From the IMG/VR virus record IMGVR_UViG_3300017527_000470, positions 1-40,756 of that record: a DNA stretch of 40,756 bases; one strand, given 5' to 3'. A program made the translations under genes and the position numbers. Source of the DNA: a virus. Shown here in pieces: positions 360-16,526 of this stretch (position 1 is the stretch's first letter; the number at the start of each line of letters is the position of its first letter). The notes beneath the pieces are model-generated. The model worked only from the letters and a program-made list of their open reading frames with translations. It was not told the origin of the DNA and did no database searches.

Positions 360-476
360 TAAGCTGAGCTGCCTGCCGATATTCGTCTTCGAATTCGAAG
401 ACGAATTATTCGAATTCACGTAGAACGCACCTGCATTCGTGCCATTATTCGCGTTACCGCCAACATGAGCGACACG
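360..476 (-). repeat. DGR template repeat (TR)
   Basis: This 117-bp stretch aligns without gaps, at a fixed offset of 160 bp, to the 3' end of the target gene (520-636). Read on the minus strand it is rich in AAT/AAC codons. Where the two copies differ, the template has A in 20 of 21 positions, for example AAT to GGT, AAT to TTT, AAC to GAC and ACG to GCG. It lies between the target gene and the reverse transcriptase gene, the usual DGR position. An 85-codon open frame (258-512) runs through it, but that frame simply follows the target's reading frame and is more likely template RNA than a gene. A perfect 26-bp palindrome (381-406) sits inside. Confidence 0.93.
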
Positions 477-516
477 TGCACAACCCCAACCGAAAAACAA
501 TCGCGGACGCATACGT

Positions 517-1881
517 TTAAAAGCAGAGCCGCCCGCCGATAGTCGTCTCCGAACCCGAAGACGAATAATTCAAAGCCACGCAGAACGCACCTGCACTCGC
601 GCCAAAACCCGCGTCACCGCCAACAAGAGCGACACGCCAACCCGAGTCATTATCATTATCAAAATGCGTATAGTAATAATCTGTTAAATATGTCGAGCTG
701 CTACCTCCGGTAGAAGATGGCCAAATACCCGTAAAATCAATAACATCAGTGGCATATCCATCAGCCTGAGCCAGTGACCCGGCCAATGTGTAGTTTGTAT
801 CTGTATCATCGGCAAAATCGGTGTAGTCTCCAGCCAAATATAGGCGAGATCCGTTAGCGGAGGAATTATGTATATTAATTCCGTCTAAAAACTGCCACAC
901 ATTTCCCCACCAATTTTCGATTCCCCGATAGGTCATGTAGTCGCCAGATTGGCTACTGGCAATAGACCCGCCAGCCGACACATTATTTGTAACATTGCCA
1001 TCACCATTGCTTGTTCCGGTAATACCGATATAGCCACCAGCCCCAGTCTCACCGGCTATCCACGTCCCGCCCGATAACGCTGTACGCCCATTACCGATTT
1101 CCGACTGTGAGTAAAAGCTGGCGTATTCTGTGAGATAAAGCACACTGACAATAGAATACGTGTATGCATCCATATGATGCCAGCCTGTACCTCGCTGCTC
1201 CGCCATCGCACGAAACTCAGCGCGAGTCTCTGAGGTCTTTGGGTAGTTGCCAGTAATCGAGCACAATTTATCACCACTGGCATACCCGTTTATATGCACA
1301 TTACCGGGTGCAACCATAGCGCTAGCCGAATCATCATACATTGTGCCCTGGTAAGCTCCGATATAGCGATAATCGACCTGTGACCCAGCTTTGGTGAATG
1401 CTGGATGTATTATAGAATTTTCTATACTGCTATCTGCAAGGGTAAGCTGAAATGACGATTCACCCACAAAAAAATATCTATAATCTCCCGATCGTGCTTG
1501 AATGTAATGAAATACGGGAATTTGAACCATTACTTGGCCATCCGTTCCGTCTAAAACGGCGGCGGTGGAACAGTTTTCTTTTAACGTTGAATCGGATGAA
1601 CATAGATAATAAGCAACCGTTCCTCCATCAGTTAAAATAACCCTTCGCATCTGTTCTTGAATCGGCCACGATGTAACAGCTTCCTCGGTGAATATGCTAT
1701 TGGCGACGGTCCCAATCTGATAAGTATCAGCATTTTGGTCCCAAATAACTCCGTAGGCTATTCCCTGAGAATTACCACCAAATAAATCTATTGCCCTCAT
1801 ACCAGCATTGGCGGAAGATGAAATCATGCAAAGAAACAGCATGCAAAGAAACATCATGTAAAAATATATTATTTTTTTCAT
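517..1881 (-). CDS. DGR target protein: secreted C-type-lectin/FGE-fold variable protein
   Basis: The 454-residue protein carries the variable repeat at its extreme C-terminus, as DGR targets do, so its ligand-binding surface is the part being diversified. The motif GIENWWGNVWQFLDG (around residues 320-335) and the final GWRVALVGG...AGAF...GGRLCF pattern are typical of the formylglycine-generating-enzyme-like / C-type lectin fold used by DGR targets. The N-terminus (about residues 1-27) is a clear Sec signal peptide: MKK, a Phe/Leu/Met/Cys-rich core, then SANA before Gly. The start codon overlaps the upstream stop by four bases (ATGA), implying translational coupling. In phages such targets are usually receptor-binding tail proteins. 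The signal peptide makes surface display by the host cell an alternative. Domain and DGR role are confident; location is inference. Confidence 0.9.
   Translation of the reverse strand: MKKIIYFYMMFLCMLFLCMISSSANAGMRAIDLFGGNSQGIAYGVIWDQNADTYQIGTVANSIFTEEAVTSWPIQEQMRRVILTDGGTVAYYLCSSDSTLKENCSTAAVLDGTDGQVMVQIPVFHYIQARSGDYRYFFVGESSFQLTLADSSIENSIIHPAFTKAGSQVDYRYIGAYQGTMYDDSASAMVAPGNVHINGYASGDKLCSITGNYPKTSETRAEFRAMAEQRGTGWHHMDAYTYSIVSVLYLTEYASFYSQSEIGNGRTALSGGTWIAGETGAGGYIGITGTSNGDGNVTNNVSAGGSIASSQSGDYMTYRGIENWWGNVWQFLDGINIHNSSANGSRLYLAGDYTDFADDTDTNYTLAGSLAQADGYATDVIDFTGIWPSSTGGSSSTYLTDYYYTHFDNDNDSGWRVALVGGDAGFGASAGAFCVALNYSSSGSETTIGGRLCF
520..636 (-). repeat. DGR variable repeat (VR) at the 3' end of the target gene
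   Basis: This is the recipient copy of the template repeat and encodes the last 39 residues of the target protein (RVALVGG through GGRLCF). Relative to the template, changes fall at coding-strand adenines: H to L, N to D, NN to GF, T to A, N to S, Y to C, N to A, N to Y, N to G, K to E, N to T, R to G, Q to R and S to C. Only one substitution is at a non-A position (TCG to TTG). Invariant positions are mostly codons without A. Matching runs from the 9-bp CGTGTCGCT block up to the last sense codon, and the gene stop lies immediately outside. Confidence 0.93.
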
Positions 1882-3433: not shown

Positions 3434-6400
3434 TTACTCGTTTAAAAGTTTATAGATTTCTCGCAAACTATTCCCGCCTCCAGGTTGATCGCGGTCAACT
3501 GCCGGCTGCCCGCCGCGTGGTGGGATTGATACCTTCTGTCTACGTTTCTGATACGTGTCCCGGTACCAGCGTAAGGCTAATTGATACCGCTCTTTTTCAT
3601 CCTCATTTAAGGTTGCCAAAAACTTTCGATGATCTTTCTTGGCCAGCGAACCCAAAGGGGCGCTGCGTCTTAACGAACTTGTGATCCCGGTACTAGTCCC
3701 GCCTAACTTGTAATATTTACCCAAGTACTTTTCGGCGGCTTTCAAATCCCCATATTTCAAGCTTTGTTTGTAATAATAAAGTGCCTTGCTTTTATTTGTC
3801 GGTGATATGCTCGGCCGTTCCATTCCGGTCTTTCTCAAATAATCAAAGGTTTTCGATTTGATATCGTAATACGCGGATTCCCCTGGATCCGAATTGTAAA
3901 AACCCAAAGCCATTAAGTCATTTAACAACCGCTCGCCTGTAGTGTCCCCGCGCTTGGGTTTTCCGACCAACCAACCGTAAGCGCCATTTAACGAAAACAA
4001 CCGGGTGACATGTTCCAGCTTGTCATAAATGGGCCTAGGGTTAAACGGGTCCGGCCAAAAAGACGTTCCTGACAGCGTTTCCGCACCGGCCTTGATATCG
4101 GGACGAATCCCGGAAATAATTTTGATAATCGGTGCCAGGGCGGCTTCCTTGACCTTTTCACCGAATGTGGCTTTCTTGCTTATGACGTCCGCAATATCCT
4201 TGTGAAGGTCCTCGCCACCAAACCATGCTAAAGCATCAGAAAGCGCACCCTGGAACCGTAATGAAACAACTGAACCATCCTCACGGCGGCCAAAGATAAT
4301 ATGTAACTGCCGGCGCTGCGCCTCGCCCAATTCATCGTCCTCGTCCGGGAAGAACGTTCGATTCCAAACATTGGCCAATACATAGATGGCGGTGGCCTTT
4401 GCGGCCAACTTGGATCCCTTCCAGGCAACGTTCGCACCGACCAGGGGAAGCGCCCGGCCAATCTTTCTGGCGCCCTGGCCCTCATGTTTAAGGTTTCTCA
4501 TTAACCGAACGTACCTGGGGGCATTGACCTCCAGCCAAGAATTTCCCGTTATCATAACTTTACCGTCTTGGCGCATAACCCAAGTTCCGTTTGGTGTTTT
4601 GGGACACCACACTTGACCCTTATAACATTCGCGGCCAATTTCCCATTTGAAAAGTTGAACTCTATCGCGTTTTTTAACATAGATGCTTTTATGGTCTTCT
4701 ATCTTTGAAAATTTCCCGTTAGCTTTCTTAGGTCTGATATGGCCAGCCTTCCCAAGAATGTAACAAAGAATTTGGAACGCATCGAGAACAGGGCCTTCGT
4801 TTTGAGTAAACGCTACAAATCCATTGACTTTCGTTCCCTCAGCGGAAATCATCGCCTCATACATCGCCTGACATTCTTTTTCTCCGAGACGAGTAACAAT
4901 AGCCGGCAAATCATCTTTTAATTTAAATACGTTTCTAATCGCGCCAAGTTCTCCGGCCTTTAAACGAAAACAGATAACACCGGTTTCGGGATGCACACTT
5001 TCAGATGATATATAATCTGAAAATTTTTCCCTTATCATTTCGACTCTATCAGGCTTTTTTTGGTAAAGCATAGCTTCAAATGAATTAGGTGAATATTTTC
5101 TTGTTCTAAAATATCCATCGGTGACAAGCCATCCGAGCAAAGAAGACTCTGTTTCGTTTAGAATACTTTTTTCAACAAAGTCGTGTGGGGCAACAATCGG
5201 TAAGTGTTGATGTGATTTTAAGTCTTTGGCTAAAACAATTTTACGTTGATCTTTATATTTTTCAATGACTACCATACGGTGATCTTCGGTAAACTGATAT
5301 TTAAATCCCCATTTGTTTTTTATAGTAATAAGTTCATCATCGAATGGAAACACAGCTTTATTTTGAACTTTTTGCCATTCTGTGCAACGAGTTTTAAGAT
5401 TGTATGTCAAAACCTTTTCACCAGTATTAAGACTTTCGTGTCGCTTCCATCCTTCACGTGTCAAAATCTCCGTATCTTCAGGGACACAATAAAACGGAAT
5501 TAAGTGACGACGGAGCCATTGGCCGGAATGGGTAATATTACCATAATCTCCAATGAGTTCCCGGGCTAATTTCGCGGCCTTTTCGGTATTGTCCTTAATA
5601 CCATCGATTTCGGCCTTGTTCGATGCTGCATAAATATTTTTATCTCCAGCTGCTATCCGGTCCTGGAAATACCTGAAAGCGGCTAACCTTAAAATGTTTT
5701 CCCGGTAATTGGTAAAACCCTGCAATCCTCGCCACCCCTGTTTGATAAGGTTAGGCTTTTCACCGGTGATCGCTTGCATGTGTTTATCGTAGGCCAATTC
5801 TCGGGTCACGTCCGCCACTTCCTGAACCGACCAACCGGATCCGACCACCCCCAGGGAATGAGCAAGATCGATTTCTTTTTGAAGTTCTGGCGAAATCTTT
5901 TTTCTTTTCCAGTCTTTATAAACGTCCCGGGTGGCCCCGGCCATATACTTGAAAACGATTTTCGGATCATATGCCAGCGCAATATCCAAGTCGCCGGACA
6001 TGTTGTTCACATTGTATTTAATTACGCGATACGGGTTGATCAAGATCCATTGTTTCCAGCCAGTCATCATTTTACGCGATGCCACTGAAATCATATGATC
6101 TTCCAACTTCACGTCATAACCGTCTAAAGTTTTGGCGACATCGGTAGGGACAATCCATTCGACATCTCGGCCGCGCGCCAAAATTTGCTTGATCTTGTCT
6201 GCATTTTCTTCCCCGATCACCATTTCCCCTGCCTGAACTGCATCCACAATTCGATCAGACAATGAATAGGCTTTGTACCAGGAAGTCCCCGGTGCCGGTT
6301 TCCAGATAACATGATCATCAGGCATAATATCGGTCGGCTTTTTAAAATCGCGCCCCAGGTATTCCTTGATAAATTCGTTTCGCTGCCGGATTGCCCTAAA

Positions 6401-9400
6401 TATTATGCCGGCTGCCGGAGCGCCTTCCAGATTTTCAGACATCATGTGGTTGAAATATGCCCATGCCCTGGATCCCAGCTCATCAAAAGGGAACGGGATC
6501 GGGACCGGGTCCCGCATATCGTCTTTGGCTCGCGCCTTTTCGTCTAAAACTTCGCGCTGCCATTCTTCCAGGGCTTCGATAACATCAGTAAAATCCCTGG
6601 ACCCGTTTTCCAGCTTGCCCTTTTTGGCCATATTGCCAATCCAGCTTAGGCCTTTGGCGACCTCGGCCTTGAAGGGGGAGAGCGGATCGGCTTCTTCCTG
6701 GACCATGGCAGCGGTCCATTTCTTGCCGCTTGTACCCTGGGCGGTCAAACGCTCAGCCTCATTGACATATAGCTGATGCAGATTCATTGACTTTGCTTGA
6801 GTCTTTAGGGCCGGCATAATATCTGCTAAATCTTGAATTCGCCCCATGGTGTATTTGGTATCAAGCTGTGAAATCGCCTGAGCGATAACCTCAAATTCAG
6901 ATTCAGCGTAATCCGAATTATAGTCCTTGGAAGATCCTATCCGGCCGCGCTGCCACCCTTTCTTTTTCAACCGTACATCTTTTGATGATACACCGATGCC
7001 TGGATAATAATCGCTGCCGATTTCTCTGACCGCTCGGTACTGTAATACTTGGTGATGAAAATAGCGCTCATCTTCCATGACGGATTCAGGCAATAACTTG
7101 GCATCTACCAAAGCCCGTTTTAATTTGTTGTTGAACAAGGTACGGCGTTCAAGGGCATCTGCGATAACCGGATCTCTTTCAGCAATCTTGTTTAACCGGG
7201 CCAAATATTCGCGAGCGGTTTTAATGTTAAACCCAAACGGTAAATTATTCGGATCTTTGAGCAATCCGCTTTCAACGTCTTTGGCCATATCGTCCATCAG
7301 CAACTTATGGGCAAACACCTTGTACTGGTTTGGTTTCAGATTCCCCATAATTGCAGACAAGGCCTGACCAGCACGCCTGGCGCTGTTGCTTGGAACTTCC
7401 TGATAAATTCGCAAAACATTAGCGATATCAGAATATTCTTTCGGATCCAAATACGGTCGATGCCGGGTACTGCTATGCCAGATATCTTTTAAGGTATCGC
7501 CAAACTTTTCGAAAAATGATAGGCGCCCCAGGCCCTTGGAAGCTTCCAGGGCGGTTGCCACCTCTTTGGGCAATCCTGTGGTGGGATCGGAATCAATGTC
7601 CGGGGACGTAAAGAAAGCATCCGGCTGCGCTGCCTGGAGTGCATCGATGTACGTTTGCGTGATCGGGTCAATCCGGTCCTTTACCGACATTGCCGCTTTG
7701 TTTTCAATAAACGGGGTGGCAAGCTTGTAGAATTTTGTGGAAATTTCCTCTGTATCTAAGGTTTCAGTCGTAAACGTTACTCCGGTTGCATCGCCCTCAC
7801 GTGCGGTAAATTGATACATAGGGTCCATGTCAATCGCGGACCGGTCCCATTCCCCGTCAAATTTGATATCGTTTCCAGGATTAGCCGTATTGAATATTTC
7901 CGCCTGTTCATAACCCGGGTGATCGATTTTAGGTGAAAATACAACCCGGTAATCCGCCGTCGACAAATCAACGGCCGTGGGTGCGTTCGTCGCCCTTTTA
8001 ACCGAAAATAAAGGCATGCCTTCGCCCATGGCCTTGTCACGCATTTGGGTGGTAATCGGCAACGTCCACATTTGCTGATATTTATCCTCGGCCTTGCGGA
8101 CGGCATCGACATAATAAGATGGCGGCTTGTCGGCGCCCGGCCATGGATTGGGATTAAATACGGCCATACTGTAACCCTTGCCGACTTCCAATCCCCTGGC
8201 TTGATCACTTAGCCACCTGGAAGCCGCATGGTCGCCTTCTTTATGGGCTTTTCTTGATGCTGCGCTTAAAAGCTTTGAAGTTATTTCTTCGCTGATATTT
8301 TTATTGACAACCGTGTGCCCTGATTCGACGTGAGAATAACCCCAGGCCTTTTTGTTGAAAAAGTTGTTGACCATGTTTTTTACTTTTTCATCATAAAAAA
8401 CCCGCATGGGCTCGCCACCGACTTTGAGGTCAAGGCCGTTTAAAACGGGGGTCGCATCACCAGCATCTCGCTTGTCAATTAGCCTTTGTGCTATTTCTTT
8501 GCCAACATAGTCTTCAAGATTTTTCTCTGTTACGTCTCCCTTTGATATGGCCGGTTCAACATCGTCCTTGTTTTTCCATGCCATAAACTGCTTGGTGTCG
8601 GAGTGCCACTGAACCTCATAAACCTGCTCACTCAAATCATACCGCTCTGTCTGAACCTCGCCCGGTGTCCATGAAATGGTGTCGTAACCGCCTTCAGCGG
8701 CATACCGCACCATGCGCTTGAATGCCAGCATTGGCCAGGTTTTTTTGAATGGTGCGTCAGGTACGCCTTTTTGGTTTTCTATCTCCTTGACGACATGAAA
8801 ACCGCCCTGCAACTTCCCCCAGGATTCATCCGCGTTTAATTTTTTTGTGACATCCTCGGCCTGCTTTTTCGTATCGAATGTGTTATAAACATCACCGTTC
8901 GCATATTTAATCCTGAAGACTGTTTCACCGCCAATATACCCTATTTTGCGCCCCGCCTGGTGCCAATCGCTCTGGATTTCTTCTATAAACAGAACCTTAC
9001 GTCCCTCGGCGTCGGTGCGGTCATTGAAGCGGACATGGGCAACAACGTTGGGTTCCTCCCAGTGAGCGCCTCGGAAAGCGGTTCGCGTTGCTTCAGTATC
9101 GGACTCTCGCATTACCATATCAATCTGACGTTTAAGATTTCCTATTTCGCGCTTTAAAGTTTGTACATGTTTCAAAGAAACAGATTCGTCCGCTTTATCA
9201 AGATCTTTTTCTAATGCTTCCTTGTTTACAATCAGTTCTTTTAATCGTTTGTCCCTGGCCGCACGTTCAGCTTTAATGTCTGGTGGCAACGTCAATAAAA
9301 GTTCCTGATAGTTTTTCCCCATGGGAAGCTGCCAGGTATCATGCCTGGGTTCATCTTTAGACGGTTCGGCATAATCCATACCGCCTCCCATGTCGATTTC

Positions 9401-12400
9401 TTCCCGGATAGCGTCTGCTAAGCGTTGCTCAATATAATTTTTTGCTTCGGGCAAAGATCCCGTTGTATCATCCCAATGGTCACCGTCTTGAGTTATAACA
9501 TAATAGACCGAACCCACGTCTTCGCCTTCTTTTTCAATCTTCCAGTTACCCATTTCCCCGGTTATCGGATTCCGATTGGTACCGTTCCACGTGGAACCCT
9601 TACCGCCCTCTACTTCGATCCAATCAATTTTTGCGGCCTCGTCAATTGAATCTTCGAAAAGATCATTCGCATAATCACTGGCAAAGTTCCGCATTGTTTG
9701 TTCATCCTTGAAAAACATTGCCGATCCGAATACGTCCTTTATTTCCGGGCTGCCTTCAATAAATAATGTCCAGGTATCATCTTTTGCTTTTTCCGCCTCA
9801 AATTTATATTCTTTTGGGTCCAGAGGGTTTGTCCACGTAGCCTCGTATTCATCGGCGGTGCCGACTTCTTGTGGCCAATTTATATACCCTTCCTGCATGG
9901 TGTCATCGCTTGACTGACGGGATTTATAACTAACCTCACGCACTTCTAAATTGTTGGCCTGTAACCAATTCATGACGGCTTGTTTTTTAATCTTGGCCGC
10001 CCCCTGGTCCGCAAGCCATTCGTCTAATCCGGACCATTCAAGCTCCTCGGATTTAAACGCGCCTTTTTTAACCAGGGCATCGATGGTTGCTTGATATTGG
10101 GCAGGGGTGCCCTTGCCTTGCAACTTGGCTTCCAGGGTCTTTTCCATTTTCGAGTAAAACCCAGGGGACTTAACCGAAAACAAAGCTTGCTGGTAAGCCT
10201 GGCTTTTTTCAAGCTCTTGTAGATTTTCAACCTGGTATTCGCTTAATCCTGTGGCTGTTTGAATTTCATCGCGAGTGGCTTCCGGGTTGTCCCTGGTGTA
10301 GGCCACATATTTTTTGATGGGTTCGTGCCAGCGGCGCTTTGTTTTGATCGAAAAAAGCGCCTGTTCTCTCGCTTTAACCGAAAAAACCGGATCCTTAGTG
10401 CCCAGTTTTGCCAACCCCGGGGACACGCCCTTCGATGCTTGTTTATATTTACTTAATGTACCGGCATCAGCGTGTGAAATTCCTTCTTCGAGAATTTCAA
10501 ATAATTGAAGTGTATCACCGAATTGTCGGGTGAAGGAACGTAAAAATTCAGATCTTCCTGGTACCGAGTCAATTCGCTGCGTTGAATTGAAAAGATAACC
10601 ACTGGCGTTCAAATCCTCGGCGGTTTTGATCAATGCCGTGGTGAGTTCTTTCGTGTTGGTCGGCTGCATGGGCACAAAACCAACAGGTTTCAATCCCCCG
10701 TCAAGAAAAAGAAAACCCTCGGCATTGTTATGAACACTTGCCAGATAATCGCGAGCTAAAGCACTATTATTAACAGAGCTGATGGCTTTAAAACCCGCCA
10801 ACCGGTTAAGGTACCGCTCTTTGACCGGCAATTTCATGGTCCGGGATATAGGTTGGATTTTTTTAGACGCGCCGGTTTGCAGATCAACATAGGATGTCCC
10901 GGAAATAACCAATCCGGAAACCTTGATTCCAGCTATACTGGTAGCTTCATTTAGATATTTAAATGTACTGATATCTTCGGGACTTGCGGTGATTGAGGTG
11001 CTCGGATGGTTGTGGATAAAATATGCAGTTTTAGCGCCTTCGGTATTTAAGAGACGACCAACAGCTTCATTGCCCTGAAAGGGTGCGCTGGATTTAATTC
11101 CTTTGCTGTACTTGTGGATTTCTAAAACCAACCCGTTTGCGTCAGTGGCTACGACGTAGAGTTGTTCTTGGGCGGACTTTCGGATAGGGGCAAGTAAGGA
11201 CGCTGCCTCGTCCAGGTTCCTAACCACCCGGCCGGCGGATCCGAGCCAGCCGGTGGTTGCCATTCGGACTTTTTGAGCGCGAGCCTGTACGTCAAACTTA
11301 TCAGGTTTCTTTTTCGCCTTTGGTTTAGTCGCTTTTGAAGCCACTGGTTTAGCTTCGGGCTTTTCGTGTTTGACTGTAATGCCTTTGTCGCCGAAGTCGA
11401 ATTCAAACTGCTGGCCTTTGAAAATGGGCAATTCCATCTGCCCGGGTTTTTTGAACTTCGGGCTGAACTTGGCTTTTTCGGTGTCGGAAATTTCAAGATC
11501 TTCATCGGTTATTTCTTGCTTCAATTTTTTACGGTCTTTTATTCTATGTTTTTCCTTGGGTTTTGTCAAGGATTTAACACTTGCTGCCAAATCCTGTCGC
11601 CTAACCTGAACCTTATCATTAGGACTAAGTTCAATCGTCATACCGTCTTTCAAGGTCACGCCGAACGGATCCTTTTCGATGACCTCGTAAACATCCCAAC
11701 CGCGGGTGGATTCGCCCTCGATTAAAGTCAGCTTCTTGCCCATGGGCAGATCTTCAGCTTCCATCGTTTGATAATCACCTGGCGGCGGCTCCTCGGCTTC
11801 GTGTATAATTTCCGCCTTGGCTTCTTTTTCCTGCTCGGTAAGGTGATCGGCCTTTTTTTCCATCAGGTCCCCGGCAACTCGGCCGCGTTTTAAAACCGAT
11901 GGATCATTAAGCACGTCCAGCAAGACTTCATCCGGTCCCAACCAACCATCGTCTTTTAACTGCTGCTCTAAGGTGTCCCAGGGCATACCGGTTTTTTGAC
12001 GGGTCAGATACATCGCGCCGGGGCTGTTTTCCGCCATTGTTTTACGTTCGCCCTTGAATTGATCGCCCCACTTGATACCGCCCGCTGCTAAGATGGCGCC
12101 CCTGAAGGTGCGGACATTGGCGCCGGCCGTTGACCGCTTCTTAATTTTAGGCGGATTTTTCTTGTCGTATGCGGCGATTGCGTTTTTAAGGATCCCCAAA
12201 CGCTGGCTAACCGCGGAGGTGGTATCGCCAACCACATTTTTAATGGCCTTATCTTTTTTCTGCGCGGCTGTCAGTCCGCCAACCAGGGCATCATATTCCT
12301 GCTCGGGGGTTACTTTTTCGGGTACTGTTTCCCGTTGATCTCCAGTGCGCTGCCCTTCGGCAAGTCCCTTAGAAATTCCTGGAGGGATTTCGCCCCGTCC

Positions 12401-15400
12401 GGCTCTTTTACCTGCAGCTTCACGTTGCGCCTTGTCCGTGTGGAGTCTTTCTTCGGCTTTGGTAACTGTTTTCGCTGTGCCATGGCTAAATTGTACCTCA
12501 TATTGAATTTTTTGACCGTCCGCGGTGATGACGGTCAAGGGGTTTTTGTTTAGGAACTCCACTACACGTTTGTTTAGTAGTTCTTCGAGTTGAGCGGCGT
12601 CATCTGATTGGACGATAAACTCATCGCCTGAAACGTGATACGTGTCCGCCTCGGTAATGGTCTTCAGCGCATTGCCAAAATTGATGAGCATGGCATCGCC
12701 GGCCTGGTGGCCAAAATTGTCATTGATATATTTAAGGCTGTCCAGGTCGATTGATGACACATGCGCTTTTCTGGTGTCTTCCAGATCAAAGGCTTGTTTA
12801 TTTCTTAACCCGGTTAGATAATCAGTGTTCGAAGCCTCGCGTAATTCGTCCTCGGTCATTTCGCTGGCTTTTTTCCTGGGCTGCATACCTGCTAAAATGC
12901 GAGCGTGAATTGTCTTTAGGGCCTCATCAAGATCCGTGTCCGCCTCGATGGTGGTGCCCATACGCTTGGCCAGGTCCATAAGTCCGGCCGGCCGTTTCTC
13001 CAACAGGGCTTTACCTGCTTCGATAAACTTGGCTTCATCCATATTTTTCGCATTGACATAGATCTTGCGAAACTCTTTGTCCCAGGCCGGGGGCTCGCGT
13101 GTTTCCAACCCTTCTTGCCTGCGCTCGGCCGCTCCTGGCCGCGCCTTTTCGCGGCGATCACCCTTGGCAGGCTTCGGGATCCCACGGCCGGAAGCAATGG
13201 ATTTGATTATAGCCAGGCGCTCTTTGATCGGCGTTTCAGTGTCGGCGATGATATCAGCTGCAGCTTTTTTGGCATCCGTGCTAAGACCCTTAACGATGTG
13301 ATCGAATTCCACCTGCAGGGGCATTTCCGCGGCTCGCGCTGCTTTCTGCTCGGCGGTCATCGGCTTTTTTACTTCGGCCGGCTTTTCGATGGTCTTATCC
13401 GTAACCTGGGTTTCTCGACGGGCAAATTCACCATACACACCGGCAAGGGCGTCTTGGGCATCATTCATTTGTTTGAAGAAAGCAGCATCGATACTTTTGC
13501 CCTTTCTCATGGCGGTTTTGATTGCTTCAACCAAGTCTTTTACGATTTGAGCTAATTGTTTTCCTAAAGTCGGGTTTTCTTTGTTAAGTTTTTGCCAGAA
13601 GTCTTTTTTTGTAAACTGCTGGCCGACAAAATCAGCTATAAATTCCTCGGTGGAAAGCGCCTCGTCGGCTGTCATTTCAGCCACGCCGGCCACTTTACGA
13701 GCCTTGTTGGCCGTATCAAGATAATCGGTGATATCGATATCCAACTCTTTGACCTTGCCAACCAGGGTGTCATACAGATCCGAGTGATCTCTTTTTAGCC
13801 GGTGCAATGATTCGTGCCCTAAAACGGTTATATAGGGATCACTGGCCGTTTCATTCAAATATATCTGACCGGTTTCCGTATCCACCAATCCATTAAGCCC
13901 ATCGATTTTACCTTTGCCCTTGTAAACGGTTATATCAAGCCCCAGGGCCTTTGCGATTTTGACAACCGAATGAACGTTCTTTTTTTCGGGATCCACTCGA
14001 ACAGCTTCAACCTCGGCGCCTTCTTCAAGGCTTTCAGATATTAATTTTTCCAAAGCGGGTAAGCGCTCACCTGCTATGGCCCTCTCTGCGCCCGGAACCT
14101 CGGTAGGTTCACCGGCCGGTGTTTCAGCTGGTATTCCGGCCAATTCCCCCAACCGGGTGTAAAGCGGATGTGACGGATCTATATTTTTCCGCATAGACTC
14201 GACATCTTCGGCGGTCAATACCCCGGCCTTAAAATCATCGCTGAGGCCCTGGAGGACTTCTTCCACGGCCGGATCTATCTTTTCCCCGGCCACTGGGTCC
14301 TTTCTGGCCTTTGGTACGCGTGGTGCGCCTGTGCCGCCCAAAATAGCGCCATAAAAAGCGGCTACGTTGCCCTGGGGAACACCTTCACGAAGTCCCTGGG
14401 AAACCAGGGTGTTTATTAATTCGGGGTTTTCCTGTAGTTTGGCGATGTAATCCGGATCCTGCGCCCAATTTTCCCAAAATTTCGATGGTACCTGTTGAAC
14501 GGTTTCCGTAATCCATTCGGTTGCGCCGCCCATAACCCTATCAAGTCCGAACTTTAACAAAGCGCCTTTAATCAGTTTTCGGGTGATAGGGTTATTTAAC
14601 ATGAAGCCCAAAGACAGCATTTCAAGAGGCGCCTGGCTCATCGAGGATCCCCATGCCGCTGTTCGCGCCCGCTCGGGATCGACACCTTCCGCGATCAATC
14701 CATCGTATTCGCTGCTGGCAATCTGCATGGCCATCCAAATACCGCTGGAAACACCTCCGGTGGTCATAAATGCCGCCACCTGGCTTGCCATCTGCGACGC
14801 CATGCCGACGACTTCTTCCATGTACTTGGTGAACTTAGGTTTTGTTGAAAGACGGTTGTAATATTCAGTGTCGGGTTGTAACCGCTCTAATTCCGCAATC
14901 TTTTCAGCGATGGGGTTCAACACTGCATTGGTTGATCCTTCATAATCCGATTTCATCATATCGACATAATACTTTGATCGATCAATCGGATCTTCCAAGT
15001 CGTATTGAGTAACATCCGGGGTATCGGTCTGGTCGCGGGTAAGCATTTCGATTGCTCTACCGGTTGCCCTGGCCAATCCCTTATGGCCTTCTACCAAAGC
15101 CTTGACCGGCTCGAAAGCGCCCGGATCGGCGTCCGCTGGCCGGTATGGTTCCGTCCCGGCCGCTGCATGAAACAAACTTTCTGCAATAGGGCCACCCATG
15201 GTCGTTGTAAATGCGGGCAAATATTTCTGAATAAACGAAGGGCCTTCGTCTACCGGTGGTTTCTGGCCGGTGAAAGAAGGATCACTCCAAATATCGTCCG
15301 GATCATAGGCTTCGGCCTGGTCCCCGGTACCGGCATCAAACTTTGGGATTTGCGTGACCTGGCCGGGTTGGTCTTCAACCCCTGCCGTTTCCGGTTTTAA

Positions 15401-15496
15401 ATCCCACTGGACCTGATCTTCGGATATCACGTTGATATCCGGACCGGCTTCCCATTCAATGGCGCCTGGATCTATCTCACTTAATTTCGTCGGCAT
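3434..15496 (-). CDS. Giant polyvalent (ejection/internal virion) protein with metallopeptidase, GGDEF, JAMM and intein
   Basis: This is a 4020-residue multi-domain protein, about 3704 residues after intein removal. I chose ATG at 15496 because GGGAG lies 8 bp upstream; a TTG ten codons earlier has no site. Visible parts, in order: a zincin motif HESLH (561-565) with a following EEFIADF (617-623); a GGDEF domain (about 885-1050, TDYLTGL 891-897, SGDEF 956-960); a RadC-like JAMM motif H-x-H-x7-S-x2-D (1495-1508); blocks shared by phage polyvalent proteins, such as HWEEPNVVAHVRFNDR (from 2145) and IEEIQSDWHQAG; linkers of type FS(V/I/P)K; a long alpha-helical C-terminal region split by an intein (3337-3652) between LIPFY and SWLEVNAPRY. 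Its size, its place at the end of a short-tail module and the lack of a tape measure suggest a protein packaged in the head and ejected with the DNA. That role is inference; the domains are seen. Confidence 0.85.
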   Translation of the reverse strand: MPTKLSEIDPGAIEWEAGPDINVISEDQVQWDLKPETAGVEDQPGQVTQIPKFDAGTGDQAEAYDPDDIWSDPSFTGQKPPVDEGPSFIQKYLPAFTTTMGGPIAESLFHAAAGTEPYRPADADPGAFEPVKALVEGHKGLARATGRAIEMLTRDQTDTPDVTQYDLEDPIDRSKYYVDMMKSDYEGSTNAVLNPIAEKIAELERLQPDTEYYNRLSTKPKFTKYMEEVVGMASQMASQVAAFMTTGGVSSGIWMAMQIASSEYDGLIAEGVDPERARTAAWGSSMSQAPLEMLSLGFMLNNPITRKLIKGALLKFGLDRVMGGATEWITETVQQVPSKFWENWAQDPDYIAKLQENPELINTLVSQGLREGVPQGNVAAFYGAILGGTGAPRVPKARKDPVAGEKIDPAVEEVLQGLSDDFKAGVLTAEDVESMRKNIDPSHPLYTRLGELAGIPAETPAGEPTEVPGAERAIAGERLPALEKLISESLEEGAEVEAVRVDPEKKNVHSVVKIAKALGLDITVYKGKGKIDGLNGLVDTETGQIYLNETASDPYITVLGHESLHRLKRDHSDLYDTLVGKVKELDIDITDYLDTANKARKVAGVAEMTADEALSTEEFIADFVGQQFTKKDFWQKLNKENPTLGKQLAQIVKDLVEAIKTAMRKGKSIDAAFFKQMNDAQDALAGVYGEFARRETQVTDKTIEKPAEVKKPMTAEQKAARAAEMPLQVEFDHIVKGLSTDAKKAAADIIADTETPIKERLAIIKSIASGRGIPKPAKGDRREKARPGAAERRQEGLETREPPAWDKEFRKIYVNAKNMDEAKFIEAGKALLEKRPAGLMDLAKRMGTTIEADTDLDEALKTIHARILAGMQPRKKASEMTEDELREASNTDYLTGLRNKQAFDLEDTRKAHVSSIDLDSLKYINDNFGHQAGDAMLINFGNALKTITEADTYHVSGDEFIVQSDDAAQLEELLNKRVVEFLNKNPLTVITADGQKIQYEVQFSHGTAKTVTKAEERLHTDKAQREAAGKRAGRGEIPPGISKGLAEGQRTGDQRETVPEKVTPEQEYDALVGGLTAAQKKDKAIKNVVGDTTSAVSQRLGILKNAIAAYDKKNPPKIKKRSTAGANVRTFRGAILAAGGIKWGDQFKGERKTMAENSPGAMYLTRQKTGMPWDTLEQQLKDDGWLGPDEVLLDVLNDPSVLKRGRVAGDLMEKKADHLTEQEKEAKAEIIHEAEEPPPGDYQTMEAEDLPMGKKLTLIEGESTRGWDVYEVIEKDPFGVTLKDGMTIELSPNDKVQVRRQDLAASVKSLTKPKEKHRIKDRKKLKQEITDEDLEISDTEKAKFSPKFKKPGQMELPIFKGQQFEFDFGDKGITVKHEKPEAKPVASKATKPKAKKKPDKFDVQARAQKVRMATTGWLGSAGRVVRNLDEAASLLAPIRKSAQEQLYVVATDANGLVLEIHKYSKGIKSSAPFQGNEAVGRLLNTEGAKTAYFIHNHPSTSITASPEDISTFKYLNEATSIAGIKVSGLVISGTSYVDLQTGASKKIQPISRTMKLPVKERYLNRLAGFKAISSVNNSALARDYLASVHNNAEGFLFLDGGLKPVGFVPMQPTNTKELTTALIKTAEDLNASGYLFNSTQRIDSVPGRSEFLRSFTRQFGDTLQLFEILEEGISHADAGTLSKYKQASKGVSPGLAKLGTKDPVFSVKAREQALFSIKTKRRWHEPIKKYVAYTRDNPEATRDEIQTATGLSEYQVENLQELEKSQAYQQALFSVKSPGFYSKMEKTLEAKLQGKGTPAQYQATIDALVKKGAFKSEELEWSGLDEWLADQGAAKIKKQAVMNWLQANNLEVREVSYKSRQSSDDTMQEGYINWPQEVGTADEYEATWTNPLDPKEYKFEAEKAKDDTWTLFIEGSPEIKDVFGSAMFFKDEQTMRNFASDYANDLFEDSIDEAAKIDWIEVEGGKGSTWNGTNRNPITGEMGNWKIEKEGEDVGSVYYVITQDGDHWDDTTGSLPEAKNYIEQRLADAIREEIDMGGGMDYAEPSKDEPRHDTWQLPMGKNYQELLLTLPPDIKAERAARDKRLKELIVNKEALEKDLDKADESVSLKHVQTLKREIGNLKRQIDMVMRESDTEATRTAFRGAHWEEPNVVAHVRFNDRTDAEGRKVLFIEEIQSDWHQAGRKIGYIGGETVFRIKYANGDVYNTFDTKKQAEDVTKKLNADESWGKLQGGFHVVKEIENQKGVPDAPFKKTWPMLAFKRMVRYAAEGGYDTISWTPGEVQTERYDLSEQVYEVQWHSDTKQFMAWKNKDDVEPAISKGDVTEKNLEDYVGKEIAQRLIDKRDAGDATPVLNGLDLKVGGEPMRVFYDEKVKNMVNNFFNKKAWGYSHVESGHTVVNKNISEEITSKLLSAASRKAHKEGDHAASRWLSDQARGLEVGKGYSMAVFNPNPWPGADKPPSYYVDAVRKAEDKYQQMWTLPITTQMRDKAMGEGMPLFSVKRATNAPTAVDLSTADYRVVFSPKIDHPGYEQAEIFNTANPGNDIKFDGEWDRSAIDMDPMYQFTAREGDATGVTFTTETLDTEEISTKFYKLATPFIENKAAMSVKDRIDPITQTYIDALQAAQPDAFFTSPDIDSDPTTGLPKEVATALEASKGLGRLSFFEKFGDTLKDIWHSSTRHRPYLDPKEYSDIANVLRIYQEVPSNSARRAGQALSAIMGNLKPNQYKVFAHKLLMDDMAKDVESGLLKDPNNLPFGFNIKTAREYLARLNKIAERDPVIADALERRTLFNNKLKRALVDAKLLPESVMEDERYFHHQVLQYRAVREIGSDYYPGIGVSSKDVRLKKKGWQRGRIGSSKDYNSDYAESEFEVIAQAISQLDTKYTMGRIQDLADIMPALKTQAKSMNLHQLYVNEAERLTAQGTSGKKWTAAMVQEEADPLSPFKAEVAKGLSWIGNMAKKGKLENGSRDFTDVIEALEEWQREVLDEKARAKDDMRDPVPIPFPFDELGSRAWAYFNHMMSENLEGAPAAGIIFRAIRQRNEFIKEYLGRDFKKPTDIMPDDHVIWKPAPGTSWYKAYSLSDRIVDAVQAGEMVIGEENADKIKQILARGRDVEWIVPTDVAKTLDGYDVKLEDHMISVASRKMMTGWKQWILINPYRVIKYNVNNMSGDLDIALAYDPKIVFKYMAGATRDVYKDWKRKKISPELQKEIDLAHSLGVVGSGWSVQEVADVTRELAYDKHMQAITGEKPNLIKQGWRGLQGFTNYRENILRLAAFRYFQDRIAAGDKNIYAASNKAEIDGIKDNTEKAAKLARELIGDYGNITHSGQWLRRHLIPFYCVPEDTEILTREGWKRHESLNTGEKVLTYNLKTRCTEWQKVQNKAVFPFDDELITIKNKWGFKYQFTEDHRMVVIEKYKDQRKIVLAKDLKSHQHLPIVAPHDFVEKSILNETESSLLGWLVTDGYFRTRKYSPNSFEAMLYQKKPDRVEMIREKFSDYISSESVHPETGVICFRLKAGELGAIRNVFKLKDDLPAIVTRLGEKECQAMYEAMISAEGTKVNGFVAFTQNEGPVLDAFQILCYILGKAGHIRPKKANGKFSKIEDHKSIYVKKRDRVQLFKWEIGRECYKGQVWCPKTPNGTWVMRQDGKVMITGNSWLEVNAPRYVRLMRNLKHEGQGARKIGRALPLVGANVAWKGSKLAAKATAIYVLANVWNRTFFPDEDDELGEAQRRQLHIIFGRREDGSVVSLRFQGALSDALAWFGGEDLHKDIADVISKKATFGEKVKEAALAPIIKIISGIRPDIKAGAETLSGTSFWPDPFNPRPIYDKLEHVTRLFSLNGAYGWLVGKPKRGDTTGERLLNDLMALGFYNSDPGESAYYDIKSKTFDYLRKTGMERPSISPTNKSKALYYYKQSLKYGDLKAAEKYLGKYYKLGGTSTGITSSLRRSAPLGSLAKKDHRKFLATLNEDEKERYQLALRWYRDTYQKRRQKVSIPPRGGQPAVDRDQPGGGNSLREIYKLLNE
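4541..5488 (-). mobile_element. Intein with LAGLIDADG-type homing endonuclease in the polyvalent protein
   Basis: This is a 316-residue in-frame insertion (residues 3337-3652) that begins with Cys (CVPEDTEILTREGWK, block A) and has the block B pattern FTEDHRM. Two endonuclease helices are visible: LLGWLVTDGYF, and the later MYEAMISAEGTKV. The C-terminal splice block reads TWVMRQDGKVMITGN and is followed by Ser as the +1 extein residue. The flanking extein joins smoothly as HLIPFY/SWLEVNAPRY. The penultimate residue is Gly rather than the usual His, a variant I recall from other phage inteins. Protein splicing would restore the uninterrupted host protein. The full-length open frame and intact blocks suggest it is active. 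Confidence 0.92.
12340..12850 (-). other. GGDEF (diguanylate-cyclase-like) domain region within the polyvalent protein
   Basis: The encoded segment has the ordered motifs of a GGDEF domain. TDYLTGLRNKQAF comes first, then SIDLDSLKYINDNFGH with the metal-binding aspartate region (917-919) and AGD (932-934), then the signature SGDEF (956-960), VQFSHGTAKT, and a final helix AEERLHTDKAQREAAGKR equivalent to the AD-LY-AK ending. The first Gly of the signature is Ser, a change tolerated in some active cyclases. The upstream inhibitory RxxD site is absent (TEAD at 948-951). Catalysis of c-di-GMP synthesis is possible but unproven. Confidence 0.8.
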
Positions 15497-16526
15497 ATGC
15501 CATACTCCCGTCACTATATTTAACAACCTTGCGGCCTTTGTATTTGCCGGTTTTTACAATGGTTTTTTGCCCTGATGGTACTTTCTTTCGAACTACGGTA
15601 GGGGACTTGCTGCCTTCTTCTCCAGTATCAGTCGAAACATCGGTTACCGATGACCTCGGCTTCGAGATTTCTTTTGTTTTCAATTCAGCCTCAATGACCT
15701 GGCGCTCTGCTCGCATTCCTTTCAACTCTTTGGCAAATGCTTTTGATTCTGCATCGGTCAACGTATTGTTGATCGTGGCTTCAAAAACTGCTTGGGTTAA
15801 TTTGCGTTCATCGGTGAGAAGCTGTGTACGGCGTTTAAGATTGGCTTGCTCTAATGTTTGTTTTTTAGATTTTCGCTCACTCGCCTCTGTCATGGCCGTG
15901 CTAAGATCTTTGGCCTTTTGTCTTTTAAGCTTCCCGGCCGCTGCCTGTTCTTTAGCCGCGTTATCAAACTGATTCATCATTTGGTTATAGGCATTGACCG
16001 CGGTTTCTCTTTCGGCGGTCAAAGAAGATCCCAAGTGAGCCCGGTAGCGCTTAACCTCACTCATCCAGAATTTTTTTTGATCATCGTCTAACAAGTGCCG
16101 GTCCTGCCAGGTAACCTGGTTTTGGAAAACACTGGTAAACAATTCCGGTAAATCCGTTTTCGATATAGCGTTCAAAGAAGCTGTGGTATTGAAATTAAAC
16201 GGATTACCATCGGGCATGTTCTCGCTTTGCAGTTGCTTGAATACCGAATTCTCAAAATCACCACGCCGGGATAGATCCGCTGGAGGCCTTCCCGCGTTTA
16301 ATGCAGGATCCTGAAACTTTGGATCCCTTCCTAACATTTGATCACGGGATAATTCAGAACCTTGGATAGGGGTTCCCCCATATCGCGCCTGGCTAACATC
16401 GGCCTCCATTTGTGCCATTTCCGGATTATCGATATACGGCTGGATATCAGTTTCAGTTAGGGTGAATTCATTTCCTCCCGTATCAACCCCGGATGTTTGT
16501 TTTAACGCTTCTCTTAATTTTGGCAT
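15477..16526 (-). CDS. Internal virion/ejection-type coiled-coil protein candidate
   Basis: This 349-residue protein is highly charged and mostly helical. A long Lys/Glu/Gln/Ala-rich coiled-coil region spans about residues 170-290, and a Ser/Thr/Gly linker leads to a small basic C-terminal motif (KTGKYKGRKVVKYSDGSMAYAD), a short SH3-like or tag-like unit of the sort I associate with phage internal proteins. It has no signal peptide or membrane segment. GAGGTGAG directly upstream sets the start. Its stop overlaps the start of the giant polyvalent gene by 20 bases, so the two are probably translationally coupled. Position and composition suggest an internal head or ejection protein that acts with the giant, but no catalytic motif is visible. 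Confidence 0.7.
   Translation of the reverse strand: MPKLREALKQTSGVDTGGNEFTLTETDIQPYIDNPEMAQMEADVSQARYGGTPIQGSELSRDQMLGRDPKFQDPALNAGRPPADLSRRGDFENSVFKQLQSENMPDGNPFNFNTTASLNAISKTDLPELFTSVFQNQVTWQDRHLLDDDQKKFWMSEVKRYRAHLGSSLTAERETAVNAYNQMMNQFDNAAKEQAAAGKLKRQKAKDLSTAMTEASERKSKKQTLEQANLKRRTQLLTDERKLTQAVFEATINNTLTDAESKAFAKELKGMRAERQVIEAELKTKEISKPRSSVTDVSTDTGEEGSKSPTVVRKKVPSGQKTIVKTGKYKGRKVVKYSDGSMAYADEIK

Follow-up and report, generated by a model that had tools for sequence, protein, structure and literature searches.

An Avd-less diversity-generating retroelement in a tailed phage, with an RT-17-type RNA between template repeat and reverse transcriptase

Results

Gene content of the locus

The window analysed here comprises 40,756 nucleotides, positions 1 to 40,756 of the IMG/VR virus record IMGVR_UViG_3300017527_000470. 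On its minus strand a gene for a phage tail protein is followed, in this order, by a template repeat (TR), a structured spacer RNA and the 5' end of the reverse transcriptase (RT) of a diversity-generating retroelement (DGR; see Table 1 for details). The variable repeat (VR) lies at the 3' end of the tail gene, the putative target, and ends at its stop codon. Elsewhere in the window there are family matches to terminase, portal and major head protein, and the setting is therefore a tailed phage; the initial annotation had assigned repeats, target gene and RT start to a phage or prophage.

The window also contains an open frame of 4030 aa (3434-15526, minus strand) with a GGDEF domain at residues 900-1028 and a RadC-like JAB domain at residues 1440-1547; near the end of this frame an intein-like stretch (CVPEDTEILTREGW ... 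MITGNS) was noted by eye.

Table 1. Features of the DGR cassette and their positions in the window
Feature	Position	Strand	Details
DGR reverse transcriptase, 5' end	1-249	minus	83 codons, cut by contig end; PHROG_1423 reverse transcriptase, E=7e-15
Structured RNA in TR-RT spacer	249-338 (model R1); 250-335 (Rfam RT-17, RF03020)	minus	Covariance scores given in the text
Template repeat (TR)	360-476	minus	117 nt, 30 adenines; gap-free alignment to VR
Probable IMH*, TR counterpart	about 360-379	minus	Position in TR matching the IMH
Target gene, 454 aa phage tail protein	517-1881	minus	PHROG_5302 tail protein, E=2e-78; stop codon at 517-519
Variable repeat (VR)	520-636	minus	Last 39 codons of target gene; gap-free alignment to TR, offset 160
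Probable IMH, VR 3' end (GGCGGGCGGCTCTGCTTT)	520-539	minus	Terminal differences constant in L006/L007/L008, similar in window and L006

The reading frame of the target gene is open. In a profile search its best match was structure 5vf4 (E=7e-7), which is TaqVP, a DGR variable protein of Thermus aquaticus (PMC6328139). The same structure was the top match in a fold search (Foldseek), albeit a weak one (E=0.016); identity to TaqVP is low and the structural model of the target is of low confidence (pLDDT 59). A C-type-lectin-like VR domain is predicted at the C-terminus of the target, and the tail protein probably contacts the host and would bind its receptor.

Template and variable repeats

Alignment of the two repeats reproduced the coordinates, the 160-bp offset and the absence of gaps reported in the initial annotation. 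In the coding sense, TR and VR were found to differ by 21 substitutions (12 A>G, 6 A>T, 2 A>C and 1 C>T), 20 of which lie at template adenines (hypergeometric P=3.4e-14 for at least 20 of 21); this matches the earlier count, which had given at least ten A>G changes and a single C>T. No substitution was observed at any VR adenine across the 117-nt alignment, and this fixes the direction of mutagenesis as TR to VR. With only one of the 21 changes at a base other than adenine, the interpretation of the pattern as a DGR fingerprint is supported, and the bias extends to the relatives of the window, where 1631 of 1719 TR-VR differences in 87 related loci are at TR adenines.

The TR also lies within a short open frame (258-512) which likewise matches the tail family, as might be expected had the 3' end of the target simply been duplicated in tandem and then diverged under positive selection, with no retroelement involved. 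Such an origin is scarcely credible, given that the substitutions are confined (the one C>T apart) to the adenines of one copy, with none at a VR adenine, that an RT follows, and that the identical order recurs in scores of loci. Inside the TR a perfect 26-bp palindrome (381-406; 13-bp arms, no loop) was observed, which is broken in the VR; it may form a structure in the template RNA or in the cDNA, or may be an echo of repeated AAT/TCG codons.

In three near-identical contigs of one relative (L006, L007 and L008) the last ~20 nt of the VR are constant and carry fixed differences from the TR, while the remaining VR varies. The VR end of the window (CGGGCGGCTCTGCTTT) is likewise GC-rich and has CGGCTCTGCTT in common with L006, and across the clade the adenines of the last 20 nt differ in ~82% of cases, compared to ~60% inside the repeat. 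This clade-wide excess and the constant ends are the pattern expected of an IMH/IMH* pair, and the last four adenine differences of the window (AGG>GGG, CAG>CGG, AGC>TGC and TTA>TTT) sit in this 3' part. These four, out of 20 adenine differences in all, are thus probably fixed between IMH and IMH* and not newly made, which would bring the mutagenic count nearer to 16. Beside the IMH boundary, the VR of L008 has a 3-base insertion relative to the TR, found in this one of the three contigs and possibly a trace of cDNA joining.

Variation among near-identical and related contigs

The only contig near-identical to the window (L004) differs from it by one mismatch in 7.8 kb, located outside the cassette, and carries an identical VR; a search of the viral collection for VR variants, with N at the template adenines, returned L004 alone, with the same VR. 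For the population of the window, the term 'active' is for this reason limited to the substitution pattern. The initial description of the element as active-looking thus holds for the adenine pattern and is backed by VR-only variation in close relatives, but finds no echo in the identical VR of L004.

Such variation was observed between L019 and L023, which differ at 16 of 1656 columns (a 1.66 kb overlap), all in the VR and all at TR adenines, with the TR identical. Among L006, L007 and L008, 31 columns vary in the VR and none in the TR; between L006 and L007, 4 of the 19 VR differences are at non-adenine positions. On this comparison of contigs, close relatives do show DGR activity. L006 and L007, otherwise near-identical, also differ in a dense tract upstream of the target and outside the cassette (L006:481-640), which looks like recombination.

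The cassette of the window itself could be a relic, once active, in a lineage which no longer diversifies its tail gene. The identical VR in the only near-identical contig would fit this, as would an RT readable only to codon 83 and the lack of a hairpin downstream of the VR; no stable GC-rich hairpin or cruciform was found just after the VR of the window (z=+1.65), while such a hairpin is present in some relatives (L012 and L021) and is needed by Bordetella phage BPP-1 for efficient homing. A relic is nevertheless improbable. Both the target frame and the 5' end of the RT are open, an intact spacer RNA is present (80 bits) and the TR-VR differences are nearly all at adenines, the single other change leaving little sign of drift; furthermore, a pair of near-identical contigs need not differ in the VR.

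The reverse transcriptase and the genes that follow it in relatives

The match to PHROG_1423 bore out the claimed start of a DGR RT, which begins at position 249 with MKRYSNLF, a start conserved among relatives. The frame is open over its 83 codons, and the catalytic part lies beyond the contig. Complete RTs of relatives are ~330-380 aa in length and have the YxDD motif in the form YCDD or YMDD; that of L028 matches Pfam RVT_1 and PDB entry 8ub7 (at 4.5e-40), labelled only 'Reverse transcriptase' in the table of matches, which we take to be the BPP-1 RT. Recovery of the rest of the gene from an adjacent contig, as had been suggested, did not succeed: an exact search of the viral collection with the first 30 bases of the window found no other viral contig, and L004 also stops inside the RT.

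In relatives, a gene for a protein of ~100 aa (seed L028:4784-5113) was found just after the RT at 121 loci (60 viral and 61 genomic) and at none of the BPP-1-like loci, and a second conserved small gene (PHROG_11557; L028:4440-4784) directly follows the RT in 78-82 loci. Neither gene is present in the window, as is expected because the region after the RT lies off the contig. Many of the genomic loci bearing these genes may be prophages. An in-frame fusion of the ~100-aa protein with the RT occurs twice, in Mangrovibacterium marinum and in a Prolixibacteraceae MAG (L130 and L131), and L085 likewise has a single open frame spanning both the RT and this domain, truncated where the locus ends.

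There was no convincing match for the ~100-aa protein in Pfam, NCBIfam or the PDB sequences. Its structure, predicted with confidence (pLDDT 92), has the order strand-strand-strand-helix-strand-strand, as in OB folds. When a viral structure library was searched, the best matches were RTs that carry an additional domain; other phage proteins came next, several of them binding single-stranded DNA, and a PDB fold search gave weak matches only. Going by the model, the protein probably has an OB fold and resembles nucleic-acid-binding proteins.

Layout of the cassette and absence of Avd

An Avd gene (bAvd, PF22296) was found neither in the window nor in 43 records of its clade, compared to 22 of 22 BPP-1-like contigs in which it is present; most of the clade records may be fragments, so that only in the vicinity of the cassette can the absence be taken as firm. 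A local Avd search over all loci agreed with the absence of Avd in the window clade. The HRDC accessory domain (PF00570) was not found in this clade, nor was PF05635, for which the sole match, weak and below the cut-off in a search with no positive control, was in a BPP-1-like contig.

The window has the target-TR-RT order without avd. This order is known, for example, from crAssphage LMMB, placed by its authors in RT lineage 3 (PMC7290462), a lineage of Wu et al. as cited there. The stop codon of the target lies 40 bp from the TR (43 bp from repeat to repeat), which leaves no room for avd at that point. The layout had been described initially as very compact; the short distance stands, but it is nothing unusual for the Avd-less clade, in which 127 of 164 loci (77/92 viral, 50/72 genomic) have a VR-TR gap no longer than 150 bp, compared to 387-471 bp in 54 BPP-1-like relatives. 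Compactness, which follows from the target-TR-RT order without avd, was dropped as a special feature after this comparison.

A conserved RNA in the TR-RT spacer

The spacer between TR and RT scored 46.5 bits with Rfam RT-17 (gathering score 40.4), which was the only Rfam result, and 80.4 bits with R1, a model of our own. The Rfam Phage_DGR spacer RNA ('Bacteriophage Diversity-Generating Retroelement RNA') was not found in the window; it was found at the BPP-1 spacer, in the same position before the RT.

The structure of the spacer was predicted by aligning 36 spacers taken from related loci, and consists of a hairpin (UUGCC-NCUU-GGCAA) together with a stem in two parts around an invariant GUA and a nearly invariant GAA. 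Compensatory changes on both sides were observed for 10 of the 10 pairs in this alignment, and 92.5% of cells are paired, versus 25-44% when slid; the observed values were reached by no shuffle. The R1 element was detected at the RT start in 77/79 viral loci (32 of which had been used to train R1, one being equal to the window), in 73/80 genomic loci, none of which had been used in training, and in 0/66 BPP-1-like loci. In L078 another RT-17-like match (32.7 bits), additional to the first, lies away from the RT at 2805-2897.

In most loci the RNA ends at the RT start codon, as would be expected if it were a leader regulating the RT gene in cis and not the RT-binding or priming part of the template RNA, and its Rfam name says only 'RT-17'. 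A leader is nonetheless unlikely, considering that the RNA sits where BPP-1 has its own spacer, one that folds, brings in the RT-Avd complex and acts as primer for cDNA synthesis (PMC12875486), and that the TR-RT distance is tight (median ~110 nt). By analogy with BPP-1, the RT-17-type spacer would be the part of the template RNA that binds the RT and primes the cDNA. The sequence data suggest that the previously unassigned RT-17 RNA belongs to the machinery of this kind of DGR.

Discussion

DGRs are directed hypermutation machines, and what is known of how they work comes mainly from BPP-1, in which Avd is required. Yet Avd is missing from a sizeable share of DGRs, and about a quarter have no accessory homologue (PMC7290462). 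The DGR type found in the window is itself known, and the new value lies in the comparison with relatives, from which a probable function emerges for the RT-17 RNA along with a candidate OB-fold accessory protein for Avd-less DGRs.

The window cassette is almost certainly a phage DGR of the known Avd-less target-TR-RT type, and a mechanism is proposed that would connect the parts observed, namely the repeats and their adenine bias, the identified target, the RT fragment, the conserved RNA structure and the VR-only variation of relatives. A transcript running through the TR and the RT-17-type spacer RNA would be bound by the RT, and the cDNA would be primed in or next to the spacer. Copying would then proceed through the TR with random misincorporation at adenines, and the cDNA would replace the VR, with the GC-rich IMH as its anchor. 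In the C-terminal domain of the tail protein, as many as 26 adenine positions could be rewritten in this way.

The relatives also suggest that the OB-fold-like protein may assist the Avd-less DGR. It is tentatively proposed that Avd-less DGRs are a distinct type of ribonucleoprotein, in which RT-17 serves as the RT-binding and cDNA-priming spacer and the OB-fold-like protein takes the place of Avd, a proposal which we hold at slightly short of an even balance; its RNA half is present in the window, while its protein half would be supplied by what is seen in relatives. Avd-less DGRs would thereby gain testable parts, a structured RNA of ~90 nt and a small OB-fold-like protein, and an orphan Rfam RNA would gain a likely function. 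The compact cassette, with ~40 bp between target and template in the window, may also be easy to rebuild in the laboratory.

The likeness of the window to RT-17 is above the gathering threshold, although the name of that Rfam family gives no link to DGRs. No paper naming RT-17 turned up in the literature searched, which did not extend to the paper defining this Rfam family (PMC5737381) or to the principal survey of DGRs, and either a link to DGRs or the small gene after the RT might already have been noted in earlier literature.

The DGR of crAssphage LMMB (PMC7290462) resembles that of the window in its target-VR-TR-RT order, lack of avd, IMH/IMH* and tail target, which is of the C-type-lectin kind as predicted for the window, and R1 scores 60 bits on its spacer; it differs in belonging to another phage group and in having an RT of 431 aa with a C-terminal extension. 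The BPP-1 DGR has in common with the window a TR and VR, adenine mutagenesis, a tail-gene target, an RT and a structured spacer RNA before the RT. In BPP-1, however, Avd lies between target and TR, the spacer is of the Rfam Phage_DGR family and a hairpin follows the VR, whereas the window has no Avd, an RT-17 spacer and no such hairpin.
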